In this document: piece after piece, positions 15,846-19,176 of the stretch | Layout of the letters: each line of letters starts with the position of its first letter | How positions within the stretch are numbered: position 1 is the first letter of the stretch | From: Fusobacterium sp. JB019 | GTDB lineage: Bacteria; Fusobacteriota; Fusobacteriia; Fusobacteriales; Fusobacteriaceae | Length of the DNA: 64,000 nt | Assembly (NCBI GenBank): GCA_030673965.1 | Contig: JAUTCN010000005.1 | Location: forward strand, 117,344 to 181,343 | Direction: 5' to 3' | Position numbers and translations under genes: made by a program | The notes under the pieces: generated by a model | Databases searched by the model: none | Told to the model about the DNA's origin: nothing | Seen by the model: only the letters and a program-made list of their open reading frames with translations

Positions 15846-15875
15846 GCTCCTTATAAAATTATAAGGAGCCTTTTT
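15846..15875 (+). terminator. Terminator of pcp
   Basis: Stem GCTCCTTATAA (15846-15856) with TTATAAGGAGC (15859-15869), followed by CTTTTTT. Confidence 0.85.
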
Positions 15876-15976: not shown

Positions 15977-18900
15977 ATGAAAAATATAGAAGTTGTTGCA
16001 GCAATATTAAAATACAAAAACAAATATTTTTGTGCCCAAAGAAAAGCTTCAGGACCTTTAGCTAAAAAATGGGAATTTCCAGGTGGAAAAATAAAACCTG
16101 GAGAAAGTCAAAAAAATGCATTAAAAAGGGAACTTTTAGAAGAGTTAAATTTAAATGTTAAAATTGGACCTTTATTTAAAACTATAAATCATAACTACGA
16201 TACTTTTTCTATAACCATGCACTCATATCTATGTGAACTTAATTCTATAAGTCTAAAATTAAAAGAGCATTTAGATTATAAATGGTTGCCATTAAAAGAA
16301 TTAAAAAATTTAGATTGGGCAGAAGCTGATATCCCAATTGTAGAAAGTCTAATTAATAAACAAGCTGTTGAAAAATCCTTATTTAACAAATCAATAGATT
16401 CTTTTATTTACAACCCAAGCTTTATAATAAATACTGAAACTAAAAATATAAAAGATAAAATTTTAGATTTATTGTATTCCTCAAAAAGAATTGATATAGC
16501 TGTTAGCTATATTGTATGGTCAGGACTTTCTCTTATTTATAAAGAATTAGAAAAATTTGATAAAAGTAGTAGAATTCTTGTTACCACAGAAGGAATGGTA
16601 AGTGATCCCCTATCTTTAAAAAAGCTTTTAGAATTACCTCTTCAAACTAAAATTTATTCTCCTACTTCTGATAGTAAAGGCTTTCATTTAAAAACTTTTT
16701 TTGGCGAAAAAAAGAATCAAAGTCGAATTCTTGTGGGAAGTTCTAATATTTCTGCTCGAGCTTTTGGACTAGCTCATGAAATGATTGTTGAAATAAATAC
16801 TGAAAATAATGGTTCGCTTATTGAAGAGCATCATAATATTTTTAATAATCTTTGGAATGATCCTTGTTCAAAATTTATAAAAAAAGAATTTATAGAAGAA
16901 TATTCTAAAATATTTTATGAAAAAAAGAAACTAGACAAACAAATTTCTACGCTTTATTTAAAAAACAAAATTATACCTAACTATATGCAAAGAAAAGCAT
17001 TATCTGAATTAGAAAACTATCGTGAATATTCTAATAAAGGATTAATTATCGCAGCAACTGGTACTGGTAAAACTTATCTTTCTGCATTTGATGTGAAACA
17101 GACAAAATCTAAAAAAGTTTTATTTTTAGTTCACAACCGTTTAATTCTTTCATCAGCTTATGAAACCTATAAAAAAGTTTTTCCTGATAACAAATTAATT
17201 GAATTAAATTCTTCAAATACAAACGAAATAAAAAGTAGTCAATTTATTTTCACAACTGATAAAACAGCATATAATCATCTTTATAAAAAATATCCTAATG
17301 ATTATTTCGACTATATAATATATGATGAAGCTCATAAAATTGGAGAAAAAACTCATTATCATTCTCTCATTAAATACTTTACTCCTAAATTTACACTTGG
17401 AATTACAGCTACACCAGAAAGAACAAAGGATCCTAAATTTTTATTTAAGATTTTCGAATATACAATACCTTATGAAATTAGATTGCTTGATGCAATGAAT
17501 CATCAATTAGTATGTCCTTTTACTTATTACGGATTAAATCTCCAAAATAAATTACTAGATGCAAATGAAAAATTTAATTATTATGAGCTAGCTAATTTTA
17601 TGAAATTTCAATTAAATGAAAAAGGACATTTTGGTAAAAAATTAAAAGGAATTGTTTTTTGTTCTAATATCTCAGAAGCTAAAAAATTATCTACTGAATT
17701 AAATAATTTAAAAATTAAAAGTATCGCGATTACAAGCGAACATTCTTCAAGAGAAGAAACAGAAGTTCATATACAAAATCTTAAAAATGATAACAATAAC
17801 CTTAATTTAATATGTGTAGTTAACCAATTTAATGAAGGAATTGATATCCCTGAAATAAATGTTATATTCATGCTTAGAAATACAACATCATCTATTATAT
17901 ATTTACAACAATTAGGAAGAGGACTTCGAAAAACACAAGATCCACATAAATACGTTACTGTCTTTGATATTATTGGAAATTCCAACAATAATTACTCTAT
18001 TGCTGAAGTTTTAACTGGAAATACAACTGCTGATAAAAGAATTCTTTTTAAAGAGGCTAATAAAAAATTCCAAACAGTATCTCCTTTTATAAATGTTCAT
18101 ATTGAAGAAAAAGCTATGGAAAATATTATTAAATCTATTTCGAATAATTTTAAAGTGGAATCAAAGCTAAAAGAAAAATTTAGAAATGAATTATTTAGAT
18201 TTAAAATTATTCCTTCACTTGTCGAACTATATAAAAACCCTAACTTTAAAGAATTAAATCTTTTACAATTGCTTTGTAAAAATTTTTATGAGCCTTTTAT
18301 AGATTATTATGTGAAAAAATACAATATCTCTAAAAATGATAAATTTCTTGAAAAATTTTTTGGTCTTATTACTCAATTTACATTTAGAGGTTATAATCAA
18401 AAAATTTTAAAAGAATATGTTTCTCTTTTAAAAGGAAATAAAACTTCTAATGAAACTCTTATAAAAACTTTAATTCCTAAAAAAACAAATGGTAAAAAAA
18501 CTGCTATTAATAGTGATTATTTTAAAAAAGGAAATAATTTTGTTGATATTTTTAAATATAATAAAACTCTTTCCCTTACTGATGAAATAATTTATGAATT
18601 AAAAAAAAGAAATGCTTATTTACTTTTTCTAGAACATATCGAATTATTTAATGAATTATCAAATCGCCCAAACTACAAAATGAAACCATTTGAACTAGTA
18701 AACAAAGGAGAATTTCTTTTTAACTCCAATGCAAATGATTGTTACATGAATTCCATAGGAGAAAGAATTGACCACATCCAAAAAAGATTTTATTGCATTA
18801 TAAATGTAAGTGCCAAAGAAACTTTTCATGATAATTATATCGATAATTTCAAAAGAATAGTTTATATGACCCAAGAATCTTCAACTGAAGAAAAAGCTAA

Positions 18901-19135
18901 AGAAAAAATAAATTTAATTAAAAATGGATATGATTTATTAATTTGTGCTAAATTTCCTCATCTAGGATACAGTAATACCTCTTACTTTAATTTAGGAAAA
19001 ATTCATGTTGATGAAATATCTTCAGTAATTACTCATCCCACCAAAGATAAAAATAAATTTAAATTTAATCATAAAATATTTTTAAAATTAGAAAATCAAA
19101 TTCCTGAAGAACTCCTTCAATATAAAAATATTTAA
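15977..19135 (+). CDS. NUDIX-PLD-SF2 helicase fusion protein
   Basis: A 1052-residue multidomain protein. Residues 1-130 are a MutT-like NUDIX domain with the box G-x5-E-x7-RELLEELNL (about 37-60). Residues 140-300 are a phospholipase-D-like nuclease domain with H237-x-K239 and G254-S-S-N257, the shortened motif seen in PLD-type restriction nucleases. Residues 340-720 are an SF2 helicase: Walker A ATGTGKT with K365, D450-EAH, TATPERT, and motif VI QLGRGLRKT from Q645. The last 300 residues resemble the DUF3427 region of PLD-helicase proteins, with the SNRPNYKMKPFELVN and LICAKFPHLGYSNT segments. PLD-helicase-DUF3427 proteins are recognised as restriction- or repair-like; the N-terminal NUDIX fusion is the unusual part. 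Base use matches the neighbours. It is monocistronic, between two terminators. Role unknown. Confidence 0.8.
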   Translation: MKNIEVVAAILKYKNKYFCAQRKASGPLAKKWEFPGGKIKPGESQKNALKRELLEELNLNVKIGPLFKTINHNYDTFSITMHSYLCELNSISLKLKEHLDYKWLPLKELKNLDWAEADIPIVESLINKQAVEKSLFNKSIDSFIYNPSFIINTETKNIKDKILDLLYSSKRIDIAVSYIVWSGLSLIYKELEKFDKSSRILVTTEGMVSDPLSLKKLLELPLQTKIYSPTSDSKGFHLKTFFGEKKNQSRILVGSSNISARAFGLAHEMIVEINTENNGSLIEEHHNIFNNLWNDPCSKFIKKEFIEEYSKIFYEKKKLDKQISTLYLKNKIIPNYMQRKALSELENYREYSNKGLIIAATGTGKTYLSAFDVKQTKSKKVLFLVHNRLILSSAYETYKKVFPDNKLIELNSSNTNEIKSSQFIFTTDKTAYNHLYKKYPNDYFDYIIYDEAHKIGEKTHYHSLIKYFTPKFTLGITATPERTKDPKFLFKIFEYTIPYEIRLLDAMNHQLVCPFTYYGLNLQNKLLDANEKFNYYELANFMKFQLNEKGHFGKKLKGIVFCSNISEAKKLSTELNNLKIKSIAITSEHSSREETEVHIQNLKNDNNNLNLICVVNQFNEGIDIPEINVIFMLRNTTSSIIYLQQLGRGLRKTQDPHKYVTVFDIIGNSNNNYSIAEVLTGNTTADKRILFKEANKKFQTVSPFINVHIEEKAMENIIKSISNNFKVESKLKEKFRNELFRFKIIPSLVELYKNPNFKELNLLQLLCKNFYEPFIDYYVKKYNISKNDKFLEKFFGLITQFTFRGYNQKILKEYVSLLKGNKTSNETLIKTLIPKKTNGKKTAINSDYFKKGNNFVDIFKYNKTLSLTDEIIYELKKRNAYLLFLEHIELFNELSNRPNYKMKPFELVNKGEFLFNSNANDCYMNSIGERIDHIQKRFYCIINVSAKETFHDNYIDNFKRIVYMTQESSTEEKAKEKINLIKNGYDLLICAKFPHLGYSNTSYFNLGKIHVDEISSVITHPTKDKNKFKFNHKIFLKLENQIPEELLQYKNI

Positions 19136-19140
19136 ATAAA

Positions 19141-19168
19141 AAAACCTTCAAAATAAATTGAAGGTTTT
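19141..19168. terminator. Bidirectional terminator
   Basis: Stem AAAACCTTCAA (19141-19151) with its complement at 19158-19168, 6-nt loop. It separates the converging helicase and GH4 genes. Confidence 0.85.
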
Positions 19169-19176
19169 TTTATTTT

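Follow-up and report, generated by a model that had tools for sequence, protein, structure and literature searches.

A NUDIX domain fused to a divergent SauUSI-type enzyme in Fusobacterium sp. JB019, and recurrent pairing of NUDIX genes with known or probable modified-cytosine nucleases

The fusion gene and its locus

The DNA analysed here is a 64,000-nucleotide stretch (the window) of contig JAUTCN010000005.1 of Fusobacterium sp. JB019. At 15977-19135 on its forward strand lies one open frame of 1052 amino acids without internal stops, predicted to join a NUDIX domain, a PLD-family nuclease, an SF2 helicase-like ATPase and an SRA-like domain in a single chain (Table 1). Four parts had been proposed for this chain in the original prediction, and all four were recovered, the first three by Pfam and the last by its SRA-type fold. 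Pfam matched NUDIX_4 at residues 7-123 (E 7e-19), PLDc_2 at 168-293 (2e-7), ResIII at 332-482 (2e-34) and Helicase_C at 554-651 (3e-9). The motifs read in the protein were the Nudix box (36-59), H237 and K239, GSSN (254-257), the Walker A lysine K365, DEAH (450-453) and QQLGRGLRK (644-652); the HxK/GSSN pair and K365 had been singled out beforehand and are indeed present. The histidine and lysine of the PLD nuclease were invariant across 17 SauUSI-type relatives. An AlphaFold model of the full chain, built with an alignment, had a mean predicted local distance difference test score (pLDDT) of 81, with about 90 in the NUDIX domain.

Table 1. Coordinates of the fusion gene, its encoded domains and flanking terminators in the window.
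Feature	Position	Strand	Basis or detail
NUDIX-PLD-SF2 helicase-SRA fusion protein (predicted), 1052 aa	15977..19135	+	AGGAG 8 nt 5' of ATG
NUDIX domain, aa 1-127	15977..16357	+	Pfam, alignments, pLDDT ~90; Nudix box GGKIKPGESQKNALKRELLEELNL
Short low-confidence linker, aa 128-147	16358..16417	+	pLDDT <50 at 130-143
PLD-family nuclease domain, aa 148-300, H237xK239 + GSSN	16418..16876	+	Pfam PLDc_2
SF2 helicase-like ATPase, aa 326-744: Walker A K365, DEAH 450-453, motif VI 644-652	16952..18208	+	Pfam, motifs, structure comparison
Alpha-helical coupler, ~aa 745-904	18209..18688	+	Helical in model; same position in SauUSI (7clg)
SRA-like target-recognition domain, ~aa 905-1052	18689..19132	+	Separate model of aa 870-1052
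Intrinsic terminator between upstream pyroglutamyl-peptidase-like gene and fusion gene	15846..15869	+	Stem-loop + T run
Terminator-like hairpin, bidirectional, 3' of fusion gene	19134..19175	+	Sequence

A fused homologue, 80% identical and in an open frame, was present in a second species of the genus, so the fusion is not the product of a sequencing error. That locus was syntenic, but its immediate flanks had changed. A third genome encoded the NUDIX domain and the nuclease as separate genes 1 bp apart, the two parts being 63% and 69% identical to their counterparts, and the NUDIX stop and the nuclease start fell at the position of the linker (residues 128-147) of the fusion protein. The intact fusion in two species and the split genes in the third indicate that the fusion is real and probably young. 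A NUDIX-free homologue was found in a further genome (G063, locus L057, 1618-9700). It followed a two-piece DUF262-like (GmrSD-type) open reading frame, with a likely type I specificity gene on the other side, both recognised by reading the sequence.

The surroundings of the fusion gene in the window are metabolic and contain no defence island. The terminator upstream of the gene suggests that it is probably a transcription unit of its own; promoter matches upstream were not above chance level. Over the stretches checked, the contig (204898 bp, including window positions 1-64000) mapped perfectly onto its own reverse complement, position x corresponding to 204899-x. The second, 100% identical copy of the fusion gene is therefore an assembly artefact, and a two-copy biology of the gene was ruled out by the palindromic contig. 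The artefact doubles all genes of the contig, the rest of the window included.

Identity of the nuclease and of the NUDIX domain

Residues 129-789 matched the PADLOC model mREase_IV (E 4e-86), and the best Protein Data Bank (PDB) match of the large part was 7clg, the SauUSI enzyme of Staphylococcus aureus (E 1.5e-85). The full model aligned with 7clg over residues 145-1051, with 782 residues aligned, VIA Z 30.8 and a root-mean-square deviation of 7.7 across moving domains. Residues 870-1052 were also modelled alone (pLDDT 69); this model was template-free, and its underlying alignment included SauUSI-type sequences. It matched the C-terminus of SauUSI in 7clg with VIA Z 10.1, followed by AspBHI, MspJI and SUVH5/6 (Z 6-7.5) and then ScoMcrA and AbaSI. 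Nearly all of these fold matches are modified-cytosine readers.

A DUF3427-like tail had been expected at this end of the chain. Pfam found no DUF3427 in the protein at E 1, whereas PF11907 (DUF3427) gave strong matches in other SauUSI-type relatives, and the fold comparison supports the expectation. By its sequence, the C-terminal DUF3427 region of the fusion protein is a diverged one. SauUSI and the fusion protein have in common the PLD domain with HxK, the SF2 ATPase, the helical coupler, the SRA-like C-terminus and a NUDIX partner. They differ in that the NUDIX is a separate gene in S. aureus and stands in cis here, and in that Pfam misses the DUF3427 of the fusion protein.

SauUSI requires 5-methylcytosine or 5-hydroxymethylcytosine in DNA and does not cut DNA with N4-methylcytosine (PMC3874153, PMC7913695). 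The best reading of residues 129-1052 is a deep-branching SauUSI-type enzyme, that is, a type IV restriction enzyme dependent on 5-methylcytosine or 5-hydroxymethylcytosine, with its own target base predicted. By analogy with SauUSI it probably cuts DNA with methylated or hydroxymethylated cytosine. When 140 SauUSI-type proteins were placed in a tree, the four-member clade of the fusion protein formed a long, well-supported separate branch. The DNA-cutting part thus belongs to a known kind, from which it has diverged, and is not the undescribed defence system that had been suggested. What is new, as judged from the literature searched, is the fused architecture and the pairing rule proposed below.

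The protein had been said to resemble a restriction or repair enzyme. Single-chain restriction agrees with the mREase_IV and 7clg matches. Repair would make it a RadD-like helicase joined to a repair nuclease, and the SF2 core is similar to that of RadD (7r7j, 6jde). The RadD equivalog model, however, reached 64 bits against a curated cut-off of 720, and on this a RadD-like repair helicase was rejected. The PLD and SRA architecture, the full-length SauUSI match, the patchy distribution and the position of the NUDIX-free homologue near a GmrSD-type frame and a likely type I specificity gene also speak against repair, which we find scarcely credible. A generic HsdR reading of the large part was ruled out on curated cut-offs as well.

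In the NUDIX domain the catalytic glutamates of the Nudix box are intact, and D118 aligns with the base-contact position, D118 in NudG and N119 in MutT. The NCBIfam models gave 88 bits for NudG (PRK10546; cut-off 156) and 75.2 bits for the MutT 8-oxo-dGTPase (TIGR00586; cut-off 97.9), so that neither cut-off was reached, and an Asp occupies the Asn119 position of the latter. Judged from these scores the domain is closest to the NudG/MutT-type NUDIX and lies below both curated cut-offs. Escherichia coli NudG (Orf135), a CTP and 5-methyl-dCTP pyrophosphatase, is 38% identical to it and has the same base-contact Asp, but is a housekeeping protein without a link to a nuclease. NudG favours 5-methyl-dCTP over CTP (PMC5158307).

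The best PDB match of the domain was 3GWY (Bacteroides fragilis Q5LBB1, 44% identity), followed by 5X1X, which is identical to the NUDIX adjoining SauUSI in S. aureus. Q5LBB1 resembles the domain in its Nudix box and D118 and differs in being a stand-alone protein of 140 amino acids. It has been screened on 74 substrates, with kcat/Km values (M-1 s-1) of 6.7e6 for 5-methyl-CTP, 4.8e6 for 5-methyl-dCTP, 4.4e6 for 5-hydroxymethyl-dCTP and 8.5e4 for 5-OH-dCTP, and far lower activity on canonical nucleoside triphosphates (PMC5158307). Hydrolysis of 5-methyl-dCTP and 5-hydroxymethyl-dCTP by Q5LBB1, the nearest relative with assay data, is near the diffusion limit; these substrates carry the same two modified bases that SauUSI attacks in DNA.

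The NUDIX tree placed SauUSI-linked proteins as the nearest neighbours of 3GWY, whose 27-tip clade (support 0.91) contained 24 SauUSI-linked members. The smallest clade holding both 3GWY and the NUDIX of the fusion protein had 49 tips with support 0.85, which was modest within the clade; most of the tips were linked to SauUSI-type or HNH genes. The catalytic glutamates were retained in all 83 linked NUDIX checked. Asp at the NudG D118 position was present in 85 of 87 SauUSI-linked and in 26/26 HNH-linked NUDIX; MutT has Asn.

The PADLOC defence candidate PDC-S07, for which no mechanism is given, has a model that matches both the NUDIX of the fusion protein and the stand-alone partner NUDIX. 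In a survey of Streptococcus suis, PDC-S07 was co-localised with type IV restriction-modification systems in 23/23 occurrences, which was left unexplained (PMC12813430). As a specific model PDC-S07 was ruled out: it also matches E. coli NudG and MutT, so a match alone means only that a protein is MutT-like.

NUDIX genes beside known or probable modified-cytosine nucleases

We compared 60 SauUSI-type loci from Fusobacteriota with 80 from a cross-phylum collection covering Bacteroidota, Bacillota, Actinomycetota, Pseudomonadota, Spirochaetota and archaea. The cross-phylum loci were retrieved with an alignment query; a single-protein query of the same contig collection gave none. A NUDIX lay within 200 bp of the SauUSI-type gene at 64/80 cross-phylum and 16/60 Fusobacteriota loci, the fusion gene of the window being counted twice because of the palindromic contig. 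At the 64 linked cross-phylum loci it was upstream in 42, downstream in 14 and on the opposite strand in 8. In S. aureus, the NUDIX gene lies upstream of the SauUSI gene with a gap of 1 bp; over the stretch compared, the encoded SauUSI is identical to 7clg. Across the 140 SauUSI-type genes, 79 of 268 genes at distance 1 were NUDIX genes, against 3 of 964 at distances 2-9 (Fisher p 8e-53, a nominal value because the loci are related). Mapped on the tree, the linked loci showed at least 11 changes of orientation (up, down or convergent). The gene order was reshuffled yet the adjacency was kept, which favours function over mere inheritance. The neighbourhood survey of homologues that had been called for found a recurrent NUDIX beside SauUSI-type genes, while the locus of the fusion gene itself is no defence island.

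Two collinear loci that are 90-91% identical (L069, 4994-8240; L070, 5048-7996) differed in the NUDIX: a NUDIX cassette followed the SauUSI-type gene in one and was cleanly absent from the other. This indicates that the NUDIX is useful but optional, and the two loci are a natural pair for probing its role. A Limosilactobacillus fermentum locus (L052, 3995-7742) had, in addition to a NUDIX, a gene annotated 'nucleotide pyrophosphohydrolase', perhaps MazG-like, directly 3' of the SauUSI-type gene.

Viral contigs were queried with the NUDIX alone, so that the identity of the partner was left free. Most of the strong viral matches overlapped, adjoined or were fused to HNH nucleases, and one lay beside a SauUSI-type gene; the weaker matches had ordinary phage genes as neighbours. 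The viral HNH partners were SRA-HNH proteins (in Acinetobacter-type prophages and others), an EVE-like/HNH pair and HNH-NUDIX fusions. The SRA-HNH (McrA/TagI-like) type IV enzymes, with an overlapping or fused NUDIX of the same type, are unlike the fusion protein in having an unrelated nuclease and no ATPase. Annotated plasmids held a Sphingomonas NUDIX-HNH pair. An HNH nuclease with a NUDIX fused at its C-terminus and a further, unassigned region at its N-terminus was found on a Paenibacillus polymyxa plasmid (L238, 2921-4384) and at a second locus (L275, 3924-5396), and in Collinsella aerofaciens (NZ_OY725717; L236, 5001-5990) the NUDIX was fused to a Vsr-type endonuclease, an enzyme class tied to 5-methylcytosine. 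The common factor of these nucleases, which are unrelated to SauUSI, is a known or likely ability to read or handle C5-modified cytosine.

Two further loci had other neighbours. On Selenomonas ruminantium pSRC2 (L232, 4001-7499) a NUDIX lay beside a protein that weakly matched EVE, with a nucleoside 2-deoxyribosyltransferase and, nearby, a GmrSD-type gene, possibly a modified-base defence cluster. At L254 (2092-5399) a large HsdR-like (type I) gene shared its last 4 bp with a NUDIX, the sole case seen in which the partner is not evidently a modified-base reader.

These partners bear on the possibility that the NUDIX serves general sanitation of the nucleotide pool, removing 8-oxo-dGTP and 5-OH-dCTP, and is tied to restriction because DNA degradation raises damaged nucleotides, the match of bases being coincidental. 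The domain does belong to a MutT-type family and scores below the cut-offs of both the MutT and NudG models, and NudG acts on oxidised nucleotides too (PMC5158307). But the base-contact residue is Asp and not the Asn of MutT, Q5LBB1 favours 5-methyl and 5-hydroxymethyl over 5-OH substrates about 50-fold, and the partners are C5-cytosine readers and not restriction enzymes in general, with one NUDIX-HsdR neighbour. We judge sanitation a clearly unlikely explanation.

Proposed role of the pairing

Gene transfer meets a major barrier in SauUSI-type enzymes, in S. aureus among others. How their hosts keep 5-methyl-dCTP that is salvaged or made by phages from entering their own DNA, and so escape self-cutting, was a question not raised in the literature searched. 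The fusion and the recurrent linkage offer a directly testable answer. With the architecture, the intact catalytic residues, the recurrent physical linkage and the nesting of the NUDIX among relatives that include one of measured activity observed directly, we infer the substrate of the NUDIX, the base of the SRA-like domain and the purpose of their union, and hold with moderate confidence that the NUDIX prevents the incorporation of modified dCTP into DNA and so shields the host from its own nuclease. In this mechanism the SRA-like C-terminus would recognise C5-modified cytosine in DNA, the SF2 motor would translocate, and the PLD domains of a dimer would cleave both strands. The NUDIX would remove C5-modified nucleotides before the host polymerase could incorporate them and so make the chromosome a target of the nuclease. 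Phage enzymes may supply such nucleotides, as may the salvage of foreign DNA after its degradation. That the NUDIX could link nucleotide chemistry to DNA attack had been proposed, and this was right in direction; the accompanying idea of a nucleotide signal is disfavoured.

That idea would make the NUDIX a regulatory domain, which senses or hydrolyses a nucleotide signal and switches the nuclease on in infection. Fusion in cis is compatible with regulation, and NUDIX domains are known in nucleotide-signal conflict systems (PMC7159879). There is, however, no synthase or signalling gene adjoining, and the partner varies in side and strand, which tight allostery would not call for. S. aureus SauUSI by itself is active both in vitro and in E. 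coli (PMC3874153), and the nearest assayed NUDIX hydrolyses modified CTPs. Regulation therefore appears highly improbable.

The same substrate evidence would also fit starvation of the phage. The NUDIX would destroy phage 5-hydroxymethyl-dCTP and 5-methyl-dCTP. Synthesis of phage DNA would then be slow or would use unmodified cytosine, leaving the DNA to other nucleases, while any modified DNA would be cleaved by the SauUSI-type part. Two points count for starvation: phages are the main source of free 5-hydroxymethyl-dCTP, and linked NUDIX genes are carried in prophages and plasmids with HNH-type partners. Q5LBB1 treats 5-methyl and 5-hydroxymethyl substrates alike (PMC5158307). Starvation nevertheless predicts stand-alone anti-phage NUDIX, and those observed stand mostly beside readers of the same base. 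Moreover, infected cells contain large pools, and a NUDIX in fused, stoichiometric form seems modest for depleting them. We regard starvation as rather unlikely. Self-protection is preferred because the NUDIX accompanies base readers and because salvage of degraded modified DNA would be a steady source of the substrate.

Several points weigh against the proposed explanation as a whole. The NUDIX is optional, and most Fusobacteriota SauUSI-type loci have none; protection, if that is its role, is thus not always needed. The cross-phylum sample was drawn partly with NUDIX-linked queries and is biased to linked clades. Asp118 also occurs in unlinked housekeeping NUDIX (17/17 aligned), so it is weak evidence and no sign of the partnership; the idea that it is peculiar to linked NUDIX was rejected. 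Finally, because the clade of the fusion protein is a long separate branch with a diverged SRA domain, its target base may differ from that of SauUSI, and the domain may read a different base.

The observations on SauUSI-type, SRA-HNH, EVE-like HNH and possibly Vsr-type nucleases can be put as a general rule, for and against which we see the case as evenly balanced: nucleases of C5-modified cytosine would be paired with a dedicated hydrolase of the corresponding free nucleotide, which guards the chromosome against self-marking, and the pair would be the real defence unit, here in one polypeptide. If this is true, type IV systems should be annotated as two parts and not one, and the rule may aid safe cloning. 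The pairing would assign a chemistry to the widely counted PDC-S07 where it stands beside a type IV enzyme, and it gives a likely context for the S. aureus structure 5X1X and for B. fragilis 3GWY. No paper in the literature searched, which did not extend to subscription journals or bioRxiv, connects SauUSI-type enzymes with a 5-substituted-dCTP hydrolase, so that an earlier report may exist. A single paper in that literature contained both 'SauUSI' and 'nudix', in separate contexts.

Two kinds of extended SauUSI-type protein were seen among the loci compared. At L113 (6001-9456) and similar Bacteroidota loci, the protein has a C-terminal extension of about 170 amino acids with a weak Peptidase_S24 match. 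A Collinsella locus (L175, 4363-8895) encodes a reading frame of 1510 amino acids with about 500 extra residues ahead of the SauUSI-type PLD domain, a region in which Pfam gave no match.

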